Part shown: one piece after another, positions 16,343-49,415 of the stretch
Numbering within the stretch: position 1 is the first letter of the stretch
Layout of the letters: each line of letters opens with the position of its first letter
Assembly: GCA_029258925.1 (NCBI GenBank)
Contig: JAPDJV010000020.1
Coordinates: 1 to 64,000 of the forward strand
Length of the DNA stretch: 64,000 nt
Reading direction: 5' to 3'
From: Thermoproteota archaeon
GTDB lineage: Archaea; Thermoproteota; Thermoprotei_A; EX4484-217-1; JAPDJV01
Notes under the pieces: model-generated
What the model was told of the DNA's origin: nothing
The model's input: only the letters and a program-made list of their open reading frames with translations
Database searches by the model: none
Program-made: the position numbers and the translations under genes

Positions 16343-17206
16343 TTATCCGTTATTCCTCAGTGCTTCCCATAGTGATGATGGCTTCTTTAAAGCTTCATCA
16401 ATAACTGTGAATAGCTCTTTAGACTTGTTTAATGCGATCTCCACGGCCTTCTCAACCTCTTCCTGTGTAAATGATGACAACCCTGTCTTCTGCATTCCAG
16501 CTACTACACCATTATCTCCAATCGATATAGATAACTTTGCTTCCAATACTTGTTCTTCTTCCAAGTTTGGATCTACAATAAGCTTTCCACCAACTTTTCC
16601 TATACTTACAATTACGACTCTTCTATTTACGGGAAGGGGTGTTGCTTCGTCTTTGTTTAGTTTAATGAAGCCCCTATCGTCTGCTTCAGCTTTGGGTACC
16701 TTAGTGTTCAATAGTGCTGCCATTGATGCAAGCATGCAGGCATCTGTCAAGTTCCCATCGTGGTCTAGAACATATATGTCAAGCCAAATAATATACACTT
16801 TTTCGCCTGGAATTATAGTCATTTTCTTTAAATCGACAACATCGAGCTCTCTGAGACTCCTATCTATTATCCTAGCTAGCTCAACGGCGTTTTCGTCTGG
16901 GGGACCTGGCTCGAAAGTTGGGAAAGCTAGTGGAACGAATTCAGCATTAACAGCTAGAACTCCTTGGTCGGGGAGATCGGGGAAAGGTGTTCCAACCCCT
17001 ACTTTAATTCCCACGAGAGCCACGGTATTCCCTATTTTTGCTAAAGCAGAACCCTCAGCTTTCTCTATAACACCAACATGTACTGATATATCCCTATACT
17101 GATTAGGACTGCGGCCATCTAGTCTCAAGTCCCTTTCAAGCATGCTTAAAATGCTTTTCTTCTTTATTTTAGGAATTAACATTTGGGATTGGGGTGAGAC
17201 GGACAA
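16343..17206 (-). CDS. rrp42: Exosome subunit Rrp42
   Basis: 287 residues, RNase PH fold without the catalytic aspartate set of Rrp41. Typical segments are LRLDGRSPNQYRDI near the start, FEPGPPDENAVELARIIDRSLRE, and YVLDHDGNLTDACMLAS. Forms a hexameric ring with Rrp41 that degrades RNA phosphorolytically. Starts with TTG two bases after the rrp41 stop; GTGGTGA serves as ribosome site. Confidence 0.95.
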   Translation of the reverse strand: MSVSPQSQMLIPKIKKKSILSMLERDLRLDGRSPNQYRDISVHVGVIEKAEGSALAKIGNTVALVGIKVGVGTPFPDLPDQGVLAVNAEFVPLAFPTFEPGPPDENAVELARIIDRSLRELDVVDLKKMTIIPGEKVYIIWLDIYVLDHDGNLTDACMLASMAALLNTKVPKAEADDRGFIKLNKDEATPLPVNRRVVIVSIGKVGGKLIVDPNLEEEQVLEAKLSISIGDNGVVAGMQKTGLSSFTQEEVEKAVEIALNKSKELFTVIDEALKKPSSLWEALRNNG

Positions 17207-17207
17207 T

Positions 17208-17954
17208 TCATGTCACCACTTGACTTCTTCTTGTAGAAAGCTCGTATTTCTTTTTAAGAGTCTCCTTCTGAAGCTCGTATATTTTCATGATACCCTTTTT
17301 CCCCAGCTCTATAGCCTTACTAGTTTCTTCAGGAGATAGTACTCCATTTAATTGGAGGAGCACTATTTCGTTAAACGATGGTGCCATTGCCATAGGCATG
17401 TCTGCCTCGCAGTGCTCGTCCTCAGTTTCATTGATATCTAACACTAGAACTCCATCAATTTTTCCGACGGCGACTGCGGCAATGAGGTCTCTTATAGGTA
17501 TTCCTGCATCAGCTAAGGCGAGAGAGGCGGCTGTTAAGCCAGCACACCTCGTTCCACCGTCTGCTTGAAGCACTTCTATAAATATGTCTATGACTGTTCT
17601 AGGATAAAGTTGAGTAAAGACTACAGATTCAAGGGCTTCCCTTATAACTTTTGAAAGTTCTATTTCTCTTCTAGAAGGAGCTGGGGACTTTCTCTCCGAT
17701 GTAGAGAAAGGAGCCATATGATATCTGCATCTTATTGCTGCTCTATCTGGGAAAGCTAGATGCCTAGGATGAACCTCTCTGGGACCATAGACTGCTGCGA
17801 TAACCTTTGTTCCCCCTTGCTCGACGTAGGCAGAGCCATCGGCATTCTTTAAGACATCTATTTCCATTCTTATAGGTCTAAGGTCTTCGGGACCTCTTCC
17901 ATCAATCCTCCTCCCCTTCTCATCAATTAGTACAATCTTATCCTCCGAGCTCAT
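17208..17954 (-). CDS. rrp41: Exosome catalytic subunit Rrp41
   Basis: 248 residues, RNase PH fold. Shows [15 protein letters not shown], the [18 protein letters not shown]/phosphate-binding segment, and EADMPMAMA containing the catalytic acidic residue. This is the active subunit of the archaeal exosome ring. It overlaps rrp4 by 17 bases and is followed directly by rrp42. Confidence 0.96.
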
Positions 17955-18684
17955 GTAAACACACCTCTTTATTCTCCTGTATAAACATTCTAATTCTATC
18001 TGTTAGCCCAGTAGTATGTGACTCTCTTTCAATGATTTTAATAGCTTTCACTATAATGTTTGCCATCCTAGGGTCACTACAATTAACTAGAATCCTACCA
18101 TTCATGCCAACCACAATATTGCATCCAGTTTCTCCTTTAATCATAGATATCATTGAGCCTTTTTTCCCAATGATGCGGGGCACTTTTGGTGGAGAAACTT
18201 CTACGATAATCCCCCTAGTAATCTTACCTAACCCCTTACCCCTTACAGTTAGAACGGGGTCTTTAGTCTTGTCAAAATCTAGGATTTTCGCGATAACATA
18301 GTCTCCGATGTCAAAGTATCTCCTTAAATTATTCTTCAGCGGATTAAATGGACCGCTTAAAGCTTCCCCGACGTGTAAAACCCCCTTATAGGGAGACTTT
18401 ATGTCGAGAATCCATGCAGTTAAACCTATGTCCTCAATTATCCCTATTATAACGTCGCCAGCCTTCGGCATATAGGGGCCCTCTAAGGGGATCACTGTAA
18501 TAGTATTGTTGTGGACTTCTACCAGTGAAGTTACTGTGATTACATACTTGTCCCCTATTTTAACAACTCCTTGACCATATACTCTAACATTCTCTCCCTC
18601 TGCGACAATCTCTCCCGGAACACCTATGTACCGGCGGGTGTTTGCAGTATGCTGTTCCATAACTATATCACCATCACTTTTCAT
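17938..18684 (-). CDS. rrp4: Exosome cap subunit Rrp4
   Basis: 248 residues with three parts: N-terminal domain ([18 protein letters not shown]), S1 domain (about 75-145) and KH domain with the loop [10 protein letters not shown] near residue 170. Rrp4 caps the Rrp41/Rrp42 ring and binds RNA. Overlaps the SBDS gene by 11 bases and rrp41 by 17 bases. Confidence 0.95.
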
Positions 18685-19390
18685 ATAATATTTTAATAGT
18701 TCCCTGACCCTTCGTTAAACTATTTACTTTCTCTATGAGCTCCTGCTTCATTCCTGCAGGAATCTCAAGTTCCATATCTAAAGACCCGTCTGAGAGCCAG
18801 TTCATCCTCTTCACTTCGCCGAGAGAAGACAAGTATTTATATGCCTTCCCCGAGTACGGGGGAGGGATTCTCACCGCTACATAAGCTTTTGCTATCTTTA
18901 TGGGAATTATTTTACTAATGGCTCTTATCACGTCTAAAGCCTGTACCTCGATATCCTTAAACGGATCTATACCTACTCTAGCCTCCTCTATTGCTCTTTC
19001 AATTCTGGCTGGAGGATGAGGTAGCCCAGTTTTAGGATCTACACAGCTCTTAGAAATATATAATATTATCTGCCTTCTCTTAGCTTCGATCATTTTTCTC
19101 CTCTGCTCTGTTGTAAGCTGGATTTCACCCTCTCTAACGATAATCTCGGCGACTTCATGTACATTAGTTGTACCAAAGATTTTTCTCAGCAGCTCCTCGG
19201 AGGCTTTCAGCCCTCTCCTTACATCCTTGTATACTATGTCTCCTACTAGTAGTTCATGTATATTCACTTTCTTACCCTCCCTCAGATTCATGGCAATGTT
19301 GGGATTCACCAAGACTTCGAATCTATGGCCTTTCCTCTCCAACCTTGCAATGACATATTCCCTTTCAGGCGACAATGATAGTCCCCGCAT
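18674..19390 (-). CDS. sbds: SBDS family ribosome maturation protein
   Basis: 238 residues with the three SBDS domains; the N-terminal FYSH domain has ARLERKGHRFEVLVNP and VYKDVRRGLKAS, and the middle helical domain has QLTTEQRRKMIEAKRRQII. SBDS works with EF-2 to release the anti-association factor aIF6 from 50S subunits. Standard neighbour of psmA and rrp4. Confidence 0.95.
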   Translation of the reverse strand: MRGLSLSPEREYVIARLERKGHRFEVLVNPNIAMNLREGKKVNIHELLVGDIVYKDVRRGLKASEELLRKIFGTTNVHEVAEIIVREGEIQLTTEQRRKMIEAKRRQIILYISKSCVDPKTGLPHPPARIERAIEEARVGIDPFKDIEVQALDVIRAISKIIPIKIAKAYVAVRIPPPYSGKAYKYLSSLGEVKRMNWLSDGSLDMELEIPAGMKQELIEKVNSLTKGQGTIKILYEK

Positions 19391-19483
19391 TTAAATTTAA
19401 GATGGAATTATTTATTTTTTGACATCCTAAGCTGTCTTATGGCTGCATCAAATCTTGAACACTAATTATGTTAATTATACTAC

Positions 19484-20200
19484 TTAAATTTTCTTTAGGA
19501 AAGCTTCTATTTCCTCGGGAGTCAGTTTCCTTAATACTCCTGTTTCAACAGGTATTACAGCTACTTCAACTAGACTTGGAGTTAGTTCTCCCTCTATCAC
19601 CCTTGCCAGCGCTTTAAGCAATAATATCAGCAAATCATCTAAGCTTAAATCATAGCTGTAGTTTTTCTCCAAGAATTCGTTTGCTAGCTGACCTCCTGAA
19701 CCTATAGCAATAGCATAGTAGCCCATGAATTGGCCACTAGGCTCCGTCATGAAAAGTCTAGGCGAAGAGTCGTCGACTCCTCCAATTAGTAGCGATACGC
19801 CAAAGGGTCTAACTCCTGCATGTTGAGTATATGATTGCTTAATATCACATATTTTCTTAGTTAATACTTCGACACTTATTGGCTCATCATAGGTTAACTT
19901 GTGTTGAATTGCTAGGAGCCTTGCATAGTCTATTAAAATTCTCCCATCAGCAGCTAGCCCTGCAAATGTCATACCTATATGGTCGTCGATTTTGAAAATC
20001 TTTTCAATACTTAGTAGGTCTAGTAGCGGAGTGACTTTCCTTTTCTCCACAGCTAAAACTACGCCTCCCTTCCCCCTAGCAGCAATTGTCGTCCATCCTC
20101 TCCTAACAGCCTCAAACGCGTATTCCACTTGATACAGCTTCCCATCAGGAGAAAATATTGTAATTGCCCTATCATAACCCATTGTTGAAGGAGTGAACAT
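19484..20200 (-). CDS. psmA: Proteasome alpha subunit
   Basis: 238 residues with the alpha-type N-terminus GYDRAITIFSPDG and QVEYAFEAV, and GVRPFGVSLLIGG in the core. It builds the outer rings of the 20S proteasome. The C-terminus lacks the penultimate-tyrosine HbYX form because alpha subunits bind that motif and do not carry it. First gene of this part of the superoperon; the upstream 600 bases separate it from tpiA. Confidence 0.96.
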   Translation of the reverse strand: MFTPSTMGYDRAITIFSPDGKLYQVEYAFEAVRRGWTTIAARGKGGVVLAVEKRKVTPLLDLLSIEKIFKIDDHIGMTFAGLAADGRILIDYARLLAIQHKLTYDEPISVEVLTKKICDIKQSYTQHAGVRPFGVSLLIGGVDDSSPRLFMTEPSGQFMGYYAIAIGSGGQLANEFLEKNYSYDLSLDDLLILLLKALARVIEGELTPSLVEVAVIPVETGVLRKLTPEEIEAFLKKI

Positions 20201-22132: not shown

Positions 22133-22717
22133 CTAGTCCACCCTCTTTTTAAGTATTTCCCGAGCTTTTCTTAGAGTACCAGTTGTTTTAATAGGAATTA
22201 CTACCACATCGTTTCCATCTATTCTCCTTATTAACGATAAACTCAGTAGAACAAGTTTCTTGTATAGATGATAGAACCTAATGATTCCTAAGCCGTTTCT
22301 AGCATCGTAGTACACTACTTTAAGTCCAGACAGCCCTACACCTATGCTTCCACTTAACAAGCTTAATTTCTCTTTGAACTCCCTCTCTATCCTCTTAGCA
22401 TCAACACCCTTGTACCCTAATAGTTCAAATATTAAATACCTTTTACGAGGCTTTAGAAGATATTCTGTACTTACTCCCATCTTTTTCGATATTATCATCG
22501 ACCTTATTAGTTCCCTATGTAACGACAGCTTTCTATACAATATGATAATGTCTAAAAAGAGTAGTAGAGTTATGGAAGTGAGAATTATCGTAAAAGAAAG
22601 GTCTAATACACCTAAAAATGCGCCTACTATTATTACTAGCAATACCGCTGTAATCGATACCGTTAGAATCCAGGCTTCAATGCCTCCAAGTTCCCCCCAA
22701 TCTCCTAAATCAACCAT
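22133..22717 (-). CDS. rnp2: RNase P subunit Rnp2 (Pop5) with membrane domain
   Basis: 194 residues. The C-terminal ~105 residues (from about 90, KPRKRYLIFELLG) match Pop5/Rpp14-type RNase P protein: two helices, SGLKVVYYDARNGLGIIRFYH, and the VVIPIKTTGTLRKARE end. The N-terminal ~65 residues form two strongly hydrophobic segments (about 15-36 and 41-60) joined to a basic linker, which ordinary Rnp2 (~110-140 residues) lacks. The protein would anchor RNase P, or this subunit, to the membrane. It follows rnp3 by 5 bases, the normal pairing. The start ATG at 22715-22717 leaves no room for a separate upstream gene. Confidence 0.8.
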   Translation of the reverse strand: MVDLGDWGELGGIEAWILTVSITAVLLVIIVGAFLGVLDLSFTIILTSITLLLFLDIIILYRKLSLHRELIRSMIISKKMGVSTEYLLKPRKRYLIFELLGYKGVDAKRIEREFKEKLSLLSGSIGVGLSGLKVVYYDARNGLGIIRFYHLYKKLVLLSLSLIRRIDGNDVVVIPIKTTGTLRKAREILKKRVD

Positions 22718-22722
22718 TTCCC

Positions 22723-23415
22723 TTAACCCCCCAGCTTTTCTTCAGCAATTTTCATCGGTCTACTCGAAACAAATGGAAGACACATTTCCAACGGTACTCC
22801 AACTACTGAGAGAAGTGATGCCAGTTGGTATGGAGATCTCAATTCGAATATCGATGATGCATATGAAGTCACTATGATCGTGCAATCCTTTTTTAAACAT
22901 ATTCTTAGAGCCTTAGATAATGCTCTTATAGAGAGTTCAAGAACGTTGTTTAAGACAAACATATGGAAAGGAATTTCCAGAACCACATTGTTATCTCTCA
23001 TTAGAGTTGCTTGGCTCTCATCAAAGAATTTGAGCAAGTGAAGTGGGTCGAAGTAAACTATGCTTACCCTCCTATCTCTCACAACATTCCTGGCAACACT
23101 TTTGGATAGTGGACGAACCCCTACAATATAGTGCCTTGTACGACATTTGCCTAATTTACTTAAAAGGTCTCTCACTCTCTTTAAGTCGTCTCCCATCACA
23201 TTAACCCTGTACAGTATAGAAATCCTCTTCTCACTACGTGAAATTCTCTTCAATACTTTGAGCTTACTGCTCAACTCCGCATCTACACTGCTGAGGTCTA
23301 TTGATAAGGCAATAGCTTTATACCCCATTTTCATCAGTACCGATACAGCTTGTTCTATTCCATTAATTATGGACTCTGTCCCCCTTACATGTAAGTCTGC
23401 TGCACTAATCAACAT
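22723..23415 (-). CDS. rnp3: RNase P subunit Rnp3 (Rpp30)
   Basis: 230 residues, TIM-barrel-like Rpp30 protein: ISAADLHV at the N-terminus, GVRPLSKSVARNVVRDRRVSIVYFDP in the middle, and a C-terminal RSPYQLASLLSVVGVP segment. Partner of Rnp2 in archaeal RNase P, which trims tRNA 5' leaders. It overlaps the preceding gene by 11 bases. Confidence 0.88.
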   Translation of the reverse strand: MLISAADLHVRGTESIINGIEQAVSVLMKMGYKAIALSIDLSSVDAELSSKLKVLKRISRSEKRISILYRVNVMGDDLKRVRDLLSKLGKCRTRHYIVGVRPLSKSVARNVVRDRRVSIVYFDPLHLLKFFDESQATLMRDNNVVLEIPFHMFVLNNVLELSIRALSKALRICLKKDCTIIVTSYASSIFELRSPYQLASLLSVVGVPLEMCLPFVSSRPMKIAEEKLGG

Positions 23416-36744: not shown

Positions 36745-36979
36745 CATAAATCTACGCTAATTAGTGAGAAGCTCTGTGACAGCTATGAATCCTATATAGC
36801 TACTTGTAAACATGATATAAATTATTATAATATAAATTAATTATTATAATATAAATTATTATGTTTAATAGCAATTAGCGTATTCAATATAATTTTCATT
36901 ATATAATATGCTGGGAATACCATGCTTTGCTTCAATTGTACAGTAAGTATTTATCTAGGAGTTACCTCAGAATATTTTG

Positions 36980-37723
36980 ATGTCTGAGAAACCCTTGAAA
37001 CCTTTCTATGGCTTTCCGACTTGGCATATAATCGTGAACTTATTCTATGGTATAATATTGCTCGCGGCAGCCTTAATCGGCTTCCTCCTAGTACACTCGC
37101 TAATGATCATTTTAATCCTCCCAGCAGCCTACCTACTGTGGAGAGGAATTTCATGGAGGAGGGGAGGTTTTCTTGAGGAGAAGCTTAGAATTAGAGAGGA
37201 GTTTATGAGAATCGTTAAGCCAGTAGATGGGGAGAGAATCTTAGATGTGGGAACTGGCGGAGGACTGCTTGCAATAGGCTATGCTAAAGCTATGAAGAGT
37301 GGAGAGGTTATAGGAATAGATATTTGGGTGCCTATGGCCGGAGGAACTTCTCTAGAGAATGCTCTGAAGAATGCTGAGATAGAGGGTGTTGCAGACAAGG
37401 TAGAGTTTAGGAGGGGTGATGCGAGAAATATACCATTCCCAGATAACTACTTTGATAAGGTTGTTGCAAGCTTTGCTATCCACACGATTCACTATAAGGA
37501 GAGAGATAAAGCTTTTAGAGAGATGATTAGAGTTCTAAAGCCTGGCGGGGTTTTAGCGATACTTGAGCCAGAGGCTGATAGGTGGATAAAGTGGAGGGTT
37601 GATGAGAAATTAAAGGAGAAGCTTGAATATCTGAGTTTAAGGAATGTACAGTTTCATCCAATTACGATGACGTACCCTAAGAAGAGAACAGTCTATTTAA
37701 TAGTTGGAGTAAAATCTAAGTGA
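36980..37723 (+). CDS. SAM-dependent methyltransferase with membrane anchor
   Basis: 247 residues. Residues ~15-55 form two hydrophobic helices (WHIIVNLFYGIILLAAALIG and LLVHSLMIILILPAAYLLW). The rest is a class I methyltransferase with motif I LDVGTGGGLLAIG, GIDIW, GDARNIPFP and a VLKPGGVLAI post-motif. TAGGAG lies about 25 bases upstream. Substrate unknown; a lipid or quinone at the membrane is a guess from the anchor. An in-frame TTG sits one codon upstream. Confidence 0.8.
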   Translation: MSEKPLKPFYGFPTWHIIVNLFYGIILLAAALIGFLLVHSLMIILILPAAYLLWRGISWRRGGFLEEKLRIREEFMRIVKPVDGERILDVGTGGGLLAIGYAKAMKSGEVIGIDIWVPMAGGTSLENALKNAEIEGVADKVEFRRGDARNIPFPDNYFDKVVASFAIHTIHYKERDKAFREMIRVLKPGGVLAILEPEADRWIKWRVDEKLKEKLEYLSLRNVQFHPITMTYPKKRTVYLIVGVKSK

Positions 37724-47009: not shown

Positions 47010-49050
47010 TTATTCTCGCTTTAAAATCCTCATGGCGTTGAGGACTGCTATTAGTGCTACTCCAACGTCGGCGAGTAGGGCTTCCCACATCGTGGCTTGT
47101 CCAATAATTCCAAGACTTATAAAGGTTAGTTTAACTCCTAAAACGAGGATTATGTTCTGCCAGAATATTCTTCGGTTTTTCCTCGCGATCTTAATTCCTA
47201 GGGTAGCCTTGAAGGTTTGCCGTCCATTATAACAACATCAGCTATTTCTATAGCAACATCGCTTCCCAAAGCCTCCATTGCAACTCCGATATTAGCTCTG
47301 GCAATGACTAGAGCATCGTTTATGCCGTCGCCGACAAAGACTATTGAACTCTTTTTTACCTTTTTCTTTTTCAAGTTTCTCAATGATTTCCACTTTTTCT
47401 TCTGGTAAAAGCTCTGCGTAGAATTCACTAATGCCATTTGCTTTGCTACTTGTTCTGCAACTTCTTTATTATCGCCTGTCAGCATCACTATTTTCTTTAC
47501 ACCGAGTTTTTTGAGCTCCTCTATAGTTTCGGGGACATCTTCTTTTATCTCGTCAGATATTACTATGTACCCTGCATGCTTCCTGTCAACAATTACATGG
47601 GCAACCGTTTCTTTCACGTCGCAAGTATCGTGTGTAACGCTGAATTTATGTAAGATCCTATCATTTCCAACCATTATCTCCTTTCCACAGATTTTCGTCC
47701 TAACGCCTTGTCCAGCTATTTCCTCATATTCTTTAATCTCGCTCCCGCTAACCTCTTTTCCATAGGTCTCTTTTATCGCCTTTGTGATCGGATGGTTCGA
47801 GTGTTCCTCGGCTAAAGCTGCCAATTCCAAGACCTCCTCTTTACTAAAGCCGTCTTTCGCAACTACTTGAGTAACCTTAAAAACCCCTTTGTTAAAGTCC
47901 CGGTTTTGTCGAAGGCAACTATAGTTGCCTTGCTTAGAGCGTCGAGGAAGTTTGAACCTTTTATGAGGATTCCTTCTCTAGCAGATTTTCCAATACCTCC
48001 AAAGTAGCTAATGGGAATTGAGAGTACTAGGGCGCATGGACAAGAAATAACTAGGAGAACTAAAGCTCTATACATCCACTTATGGAAGGCTTCTCCAAGA
48101 GCTAATGGTGGAACCATGGCAACGAGTATAGCTAAAATGATAACTGCTGGAGTGTAGTAGTGGGCAAATCTTGTTATGAACTTCTCTGTCTTAGCTTTTC
48201 TCTCACCTGCCTTCTCCACAAGCTCAAGAACTCTTGAGACCGTCAACTCTTTAAGTTCTTTTGTAACCTTAATGGTTAAAAGCCCGCTTAGGTTGAGCAT
48301 TCCCGATAAAATTTCGTCTCCTTCTTTAATTGTTCTTGGAATAGATTCTCCTGTTAAAGCTGAAGCGTCGACCGTTGATCTTCCTTCAATGACTATTCCA
48401 TCTAAGGGAACTTTTTCTCCTGCTCTCTCAACGATTATGTTTCCGACTTTAACGTCTTCCGGCTTAACTTTAACTATGTTCTCTCCAACTTTGAGGTTTG
48501 CATAATCAGCCTTTAAAGATAATAGTTTTTTAATGGGCCGTCTTGAACGATTTATGGCCAAATCTTGAAGAAACTCCTCTATTCTGTAAAATAACATTAC
48601 TCCAGCGCCTTCAGGATACTCGCCGATTATAAAAGCCCCTAAAGTCGCTATTGTTATGAGGAAGTTCTCGTCGAGTATTCTTCCGTGCACAGAGTTTACA
48701 ATGGTTCTCTTTAGAACTTTCCAGCCAACTAAGATGTAACTAACTACAAACAATTCAAATATCAACATATTGTCGTAGTTGTAGTAATATCTTAAGACTA
48801 TTCCAACTATGAAAAGTATTAGTGAGGTTGTTATGAAGTAGACGTCTTTATTATGTTCTTCTACGCTATGGTCATGGACAGATTCATTTTTATTCTCTTT
48901 CTCCGCAATCTTTGTGTTTGGTTTAACTTTCTTAACAATCTCTCTATCTCTTTCAATATCTCCATGTATTACAGGCTCGCTTGTTGCGAAATTGACTAAT
49001 GCCAACTTGAAAACCTCTTTAATTTCGTAAGTGTGGCTTGAAATTTGAAG
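47010..49050 (-). pseudogene. Heavy-metal P1B-type ATPase, multiple frameshifts
   Basis: Pieces in different frames reconstruct one Zn/Cd/Co-type P-ATPase. 49005-47863: LVNFATSEPVI (end of a lost HMA domain), helices, ALTGESIP, the metal site SCPCAL, and DKTGTLTK. 47830-47198: HSNHPI, LTGDNKEVA, FVGDGINDA. 47200-47010: IARKNRRIFWQNIILVLGVK to MRILKRE. Breaks: a G-run loss near 47883-47890, a lost G in ATGGCATT near 47433, an extra A in the A6 run near 47353, and a shift near 47205. Every catalytic motif is still readable, so decay is recent. Confidence 0.85.
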
Positions 49051-49064
49051 GCTCTAATTTAAGC

Positions 49065-49415
49065 TTATGGAACACCCTTTTCACCTAAGTGTTCAAGTGC
49101 TATCTTCAAGACATTCCTTATATGTTCATCATCTAGGCGATAGAAGACGTTTCTCCTCTCCCTGCGATAACTCACTATTCTCCTATCTTTCAAAAGCCTT
49201 AACTGATGTGAAATTGCCGAAACAGATAATCCTGTGAGGTTGGATAAATCCCGTGTGCAGAGCTCCTCCTCCATTAGGGCGAGGAGGATTTTCAGTCTCG
49301 TAGCATCGCTAAAGGCGTCGAAGAAGTCAGCTGCCTCTACAATCATTTCGTCGGGCGGGAGCTTCCTCTTAATACTAATTGTTTTCTCCTCACGCTTCCT
49401 GCAAAATTCAACCAT
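49065..49415 (-). CDS. ArsR/SmtB-family metal sensor repressor
   Basis: 116 residues, winged helix (LCTRDLSNLTGLSVSAISHQLRLLKDRRIVSYRRE). The last helix has DEHIRNVLKIALEHLGE, that is Asp-x-His-x10-His-x2-Glu, the alpha-5 Zn/Co site of SmtB and CzrA. The alpha-3 site is reduced to one Cys (ELCTRDL). It lies upstream of the broken P-type ATPase on the same strand and would have repressed it until zinc or cobalt binds. Confidence 0.88.
   Translation of the reverse strand: MVEFCRKREEKTISIKRKLPPDEMIVEAADFFDAFSDATRLKILLALMEEELCTRDLSNLTGLSVSAISHQLRLLKDRRIVSYRRERRNVFYRLDDEHIRNVLKIALEHLGEKGVP

Follow-up and report, generated by a model that had tools for sequence, protein, structure and literature searches.

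A class-wide, membrane-type N-terminal extension, apparently undescribed, of the archaeal RNase P protein Pop5 (Rnp2)

The Pop5 (Rnp2) protein of RNase P bears a membrane-type N-terminal extension, usually a single hydrophobic helix, throughout the class of heat-loving archaea to which Sulfolobus, Pyrodictium and Aeropyrum belong. It makes this Pop5 a real and class-wide, though apparently undescribed, variant of a known protein. Its probable role, in which insertion, topology and tethering are all inferred, is that of a once-acquired anchor that tethers most or all RNase P to the inner face of the membrane.

The gene was studied in a 64,000-nucleotide stretch of a Thermoproteota genome (contig JAPDJV010000020.1, positions 1 to 64,000; hereafter the window). 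It is an intact open reading frame of 194 amino acids (22133..22717, minus strand; identified with Pfam, AF2 and Foldseek) with an ATG start, and begins 5 nucleotides past the stop codon of rnp3, behind the G-rich sequence GGGGGGTTAAGGGAAATG. The interval 22718..22732 (minus strand), which holds the end of rnp3 and the G-rich stretch GGGGGGTTAAGGGAA ahead of the rnp2 ATG, was read by eye as containing a possible ribosome-binding site. An earlier note, made from the letters alone, had placed a Pop5/Rnp2 domain from near residue 90; the Pop5/Rpp14 family PF01900 matches residues 93-187 (22157..22441, minus strand) with 62.1 bits (cut-off 23 bits) over profile positions 1-101 of 104. A profile of relatives matched, in the PDB, solely 2av5, 6k0a, 2czv and 3wz0, each of which bears the name RNase P component 2, and yeast 6agb. 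The AF2 model of the window protein, made from 37 sequences, has a mean pLDDT of 90.8 (94-98 within the Pop5 domain); residues 11-79 are helical and lead into a Pop5 fold, with low pLDDT about residues 81-90. Foldseek returned 13 matches under E 0.001 for this model, all of them RNase P/MRP subunits from yeast, human or archaea, Pop5/Rnp2 among them, with TM-scores on the target of 0.87 for Pyrococcus furiosus Pop5 (2av5) and 0.70 for 6k0a. Thus, the domain assignment was borne out by the Pfam match and by structure prediction of the C-terminal part, which models as Pop5.

Conserved residues of Pyrococcus Pop5 are R17 and Y18 at the domain start, R71 in the central strand, and the S103-G104-T105 loop (PMC4919917). 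By alignment position and motif, their equivalents are kept in the window protein as R93-Y94, the Arg of GIIRF, and a T-G-T loop around G180 in which Thr replaces the Ser of the Pyrococcus Ser-Gly-Thr loop; R93, Y94 and G180 are invariant or nearly so across the alignments. The extension looks as if it had been added ahead of a normal subunit, because the residues of the domain start are kept.

The window gene is the Pop5 subunit of a normal archaeal RNase P. It lies in a block of genes in the order L15e, PF01877, Rpp30, Pop5, psmA, SBDS, Rrp4 and two RNase PH-type exosome subunits, with rnp3 (PF01876; 22723..23415, minus strand), encoding the structural partner Rpp30, directly upstream and the exosome and proteasome genes at 16343..20200 (minus strand; assigned with Pfam). 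Such an Rpp30-Pop5 exosome/proteasome neighbourhood is known in archaea (PMC4919917). The genome also encodes the RNase P RNA (RF00373, 202 bits) and Rnp1, Rnp4 and Rnp3 (matches to PF01868, PF04032 and PF01876, respectively). No second Pop5 gene, and no additional soluble Pop5, was found in this genome, in which the window copy is the only one detectable. In domain, fold, Rpp30 neighbour and exosome/proteasome operon, the gene resembles Rnp2/Pop5 of Pyrococcus (2av5/2czv) and Methanocaldococcus (6k0a) (PMC4919917); whereas only about twelve residues stand ahead of the domain core in the solved archaeal Rnp2 proteins, the window protein has some 90 more there, including two hydrophobic helices.

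Hydropathy was assessed with simple scales (KD19 and a simplified, uncalibrated Hessa sum) and no dedicated transmembrane predictor. The best 19-residue windows in the protein start at residue 20 (residues 20-38; 22604..22660, minus strand; KD19 2.83) and at residue 42 (residues 42-60; 22538..22594, minus strand; KD19 2.58), both within the modelled helix, and so the two strongly hydrophobic segments that the earlier note had described at residues ~15-60, in the same intact frame as the domain, are present as claimed. They are followed by a linker of net positive charge (residues 61-92; 22442..22537, minus strand; from charge count and AF2), which ends in KPRK immediately before the domain-opening Arg-Tyr and gives a flank charge of +5. 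By KD19, charge and the AF2 helix, the window protein thus fulfils the criterion of a hydrophobic helix of membrane-spanning length with a positive-inside flank. Residues 11-79 are inferred to form a hairpin of two membrane helices rather than a single rod, because the 49 hydrophobic residues exceed the length of one span; the model coordinates were not inspected. The AF2 model of Metallosphaera yellowstonensis Pop5 (mean pLDDT 93.2) has a helix over residues 2-28, a lower-confidence linker over residues 29-42, and the domain from residue 43. No segment of like hydropathy was found in the neighbouring Rnp3, PF01877, L15e, psmA, SBDS and Rrp4 proteins, none of which exceeds 1.9, the Rnp3 maximum, which sits in the protein interior at residue 197; the other RNase P subunits Rnp1 and Rnp4 also have no membrane-type segment (best KD19 0.86 and 0.98, respectively).

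Two other features of the window were noted. A SAM-dependent methyltransferase (36977-37723, plus strand; PF08241 at residues 89-195) has a long hydrophobic stretch (KD19 2.67 from residue 29) and a basic flank ahead of its domain, and is thus a second enzyme of soluble type whose N-terminus is membrane-like. A P-type metal ATPase (47198-49005, minus strand) apparently occupies two frames, of which the first ends soon past the DKTGTLT motif and the second contains the TGDN and GDGINDA motifs; the split reflects gene breakage or an error of assembly, and an ArsR-like regulator (49065-49415) lies nearby.

In a first sample of 60 genomes of the class (the window's own and 59 relatives), a Pfam Pop5 match was obtained in 50, and the ten without a match make up exactly two families (f3 and f6). 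All 50 matched proteins have the hydrophobic N-terminal segment and the basic linker, with KD19 of at least 1.6 in 49 and of 1.44 in the remaining one. A full-length profile detected Pop5 in 195 of 229 class genomes and in 120 of the 122 of good quality, with open frames of about 142-225 amino acids among the matches listed; when the best 30 of these loci were read directly, 29 passed the hydropathy threshold (these sets overlap the earlier ones). Named carriers located via a scan for L15e are Metallosphaera, Pyrodictium, Aeropyrum, Thermodiscus and Tiamatella, together with many Acidilobaceae and Desulfurococcales MAGs; Caldisphaera (L236) is a further named carrier. Most members have one helix; two were seen in both families of the window's order (f1, its own, and f2) and in f5, and one further locus (L018) scores two segments, of which the first is far upstream and may be untranslated. 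The membrane-type extension is thus a class-wide, usually single-helix feature, and a one-off fusion is ruled out by its recurrence throughout the class. The earlier note had proposed that absence of the extension from relatives would refute its reading, and this did not occur (50 of the 50 first examined have it); its picture of a solitary two-helix fusion stands for the helix number in the window's order and f5, and not for the class, where the extension is general and mostly one helix.

The exceptions within the class are families f3 and f6, which have a short, very divergent Pop5 below Pfam detection and no anchor (L178, L219, L221, L222, L225-L227). Elsewhere in the phylum, Pop5 frames are mostly 104-146 amino acids long. 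Direct reading of 47 loci of the phylum outside the class placed the start typically 5-10 codons (about 7) ahead of the domain and showed no membrane-type segment that follows a usable start. Bathyarchaeota and euryarchaeal loci with names likewise have no anchor, one open ANME-1 case aside. In that case (Methanophagales, L233), a hydrophobic frame (KD19 2.06) precedes the Pop5 domain and is absent in the relatives L234 and L235; at another locus outside the class (L167), there is an upstream hydrophobic frame, yet no start codon before position -7. Neither is taken as evidence of an anchor outside the class. No Pop5 was found with PF01900 or two profiles in near-complete genomes of two further families of the phylum (f15 and f22; e.g., G061 and G068). 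For the Pop5 domain, whose tree is short and poorly resolved, the best tree requires two changes of the label 'with anchor' and 69% of the bootstrap trees require a single one, compared with 18 for shuffled labels. A single origin is therefore allowed by the tree, as far as so short and poorly resolved a tree can tell, and is unproved; the anchor would probably have been gained once, in the lineage of the Sulfolobales, the Desulfurococcales and their relatives.

The start of about 7 codons ahead of the domain in Pop5 proteins outside the class could suggest that the true start within the class also lies at the domain, the hydrophobic frame upstream being open by chance. This explanation was given almost no credence. 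The same open hydrophobic frame recurs across the class, and its substitutions are constrained: in the extension, dN is, for example, 0.17 against a dS of about 2.9 (near saturation) for the pair L011/L014 and 0.09 against 0.37 for L007/L008, with the very close pair L040/L044 (0.10 against 0.11) being uninformative. Judged by these ratios, the extension is under purifying selection, i.e., translated. It evolves faster than the Pop5 domain in nearly all pairs, and membrane anchors commonly evolve faster. In addition, ATG, GTG and TTG are all absent from mid-helix to the domain in 9 of 50 relatives, and ATG is absent there in 28 of 50, which excludes initiation at the domain as a general rule. 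A mis-annotated start is thus ruled out for the class as a whole, and the possibility, raised in the earlier note as a ground for refutation, that the start codon might prove to lie near residue 85 is unlikely.

Secondary starts stay possible in the window protein itself, which has Met74 and Met81 in frame ahead of the domain. From one of these, or by proteolysis, a soluble Pop5 might be produced alongside the anchored form, leaving RNase P only partly at the membrane, and many relatives do have a start codon between helix and domain. We regard such dual products as improbable, given the 9 relatives without any of the three start codons in this region and the 28 without ATG, and given that no strong stretch resembling a ribosome-binding site was seen by eye ahead of Met74 or Met81. 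A cleaved export signal is also thought unlikely, as the charge pattern is the reverse of that expected (neutral or acidic before the helix, basic after it), and is further disfavoured by the requirement of the enzyme for a cytosolic RNA.

Across the 50 class members, net charge is mostly -2 to +1 ahead of the helix and +5 to +13 after it. The basic flank after the helix implies, by the positive-inside rule, that the C-terminus is inside and the Pop5 domain cytosolic; in the two-helix form, the N-terminus is inferred to be cytosolic as well. The segment sequence drifts in relatives while its hydrophobicity stays. Not all segments are equally convincing: the Hessa sum is marginal (+1 to +2.5) in several Sulfolobaceae, and Pyrodictium-type segments are marginal by this scale and by hydropathy (KD19 1.44, and 1.31 in locus L096). 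The main rival to a membrane anchor is that the hydrophobic helix makes a protein-protein contact within the RNase P particle, stabilising the dimer or binding a lineage-specific subunit. The holoenzyme of Methanocaldococcus is a dimeric particle with a (Pop5-Rpp30)2 tetramer at its centre (PMC6565675), on which such a contact could be built, and the marginal segments would suit it. It is nevertheless considered unlikely, as most members have a KD above 2 over 19 residues, with few charges ahead of the helix and a markedly basic flank behind it, the pattern that a membrane anchor should show, the window's own lineage has a second hydrophobic helix, and hydrophobicity is kept while the sequence drifts.

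A membrane anchor remains the preferred reading, with several points against it. There is no experimental membrane location, hydropathy is marginal in some members, and families f3 and f6 do without the extension. Moreover, the RNA-holding cleft of the Methanocaldococcus enzyme is lined by the N-terminal tail of Pop5 (PMC6565675), and the linker would therefore have to pass the RNA on its way out. If the anchor operates as proposed, one helix in most members, and two in the window genome and the nearest families, would lie in the cytoplasmic membrane, and the basic linker would hold the Pop5 domain, itself unchanged, in the cytosol to pair with Rpp30 and grip the RNase P RNA; tethering of Pop5 would then tether the whole RNase P particle. 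Most or all of the RNase P would be placed at the membrane because this is the sole Pop5 of the genome and Pop5-Rpp30 forms the core of the holoenzyme, and the whole pool is likelier to be there than a subpool because a second Pop5 gene was not found. The interpretation in the earlier note is thus supported, although the coupling of tRNA 5' processing to location that it proposed is, like membrane insertion, unproved.

The purpose of such tethering can only be guessed at; it would most likely be co-localisation with other RNA-processing machinery, of which the exosome, with genes in the same block, is our guess at the most attractive partner. The Sulfolobus solfataricus exosome, an RNA-processing complex of related organisms whose genes lie in the same kind of block, has been reported at the membrane (Roppelt et al. 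2010, as cited in PMC7613921). Unlike Pop5, the exosome subunits in the window have no membrane-type segment (best KD19 1.33-1.68). The further proposal that in this class the entire RNase P pool is membrane-bound and forms, with the exosome, an inner-membrane site at which the 5' leaders of pre-tRNAs are cut and degraded is possible but doubtful.

RNase P is nearly universal, and to our knowledge no archaeal RNase P has been described as membrane-attached. The same statement in the earlier note held up within the open-access literature, in which no report of a membrane-bound archaeal RNase P was found (subscription papers were outside the search). The words 'membrane' and 'extension' do not occur in a study that compared RNase P proteins across 71 archaea, and 'membrane' is not mentioned in the RNase P reviews and analyses examined. 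Single UniProt entries may already flag a predicted helix, and mention in the subscription literature is not excluded. Other membrane-held ribonucleases offer partial likenesses. RNase Y of Bacillus is placed at the membrane by an N-terminal transmembrane domain (PMC5030255); RNase Y and RNase E are, however, bacterial enzymes of mRNA decay without homology to RNase P, whereas here the anchor belongs to a ribozyme and is borne by one of its protein subunits. The yeast SEN tRNA splicing endonuclease, on the mitochondrial outer membrane, is thought to be anchored by a hydrophobic segment of Sen2 (PMC7136024) and is likewise a membrane-held tRNA-processing nuclease, but it is an unrelated enzyme that removes introns at the surface of a eukaryotic organelle, and the resemblance is one of analogy only.

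Given a working anchor, tRNA 5' maturation would take place at the membrane in a major class of archaea, tractable Sulfolobus species among them, in parallel with the bacterial membrane-bound RNases Y and E and the Sen2-anchored splicing endonuclease of yeast. Full-length clones of Pop5 from anchor-bearing species are predicted to behave like membrane proteins, a point that may matter for the reconstitution of their RNase P. A working anchor would also be a direct reason to ask whether RNA processing is spatially organised in cells that lack organelles.
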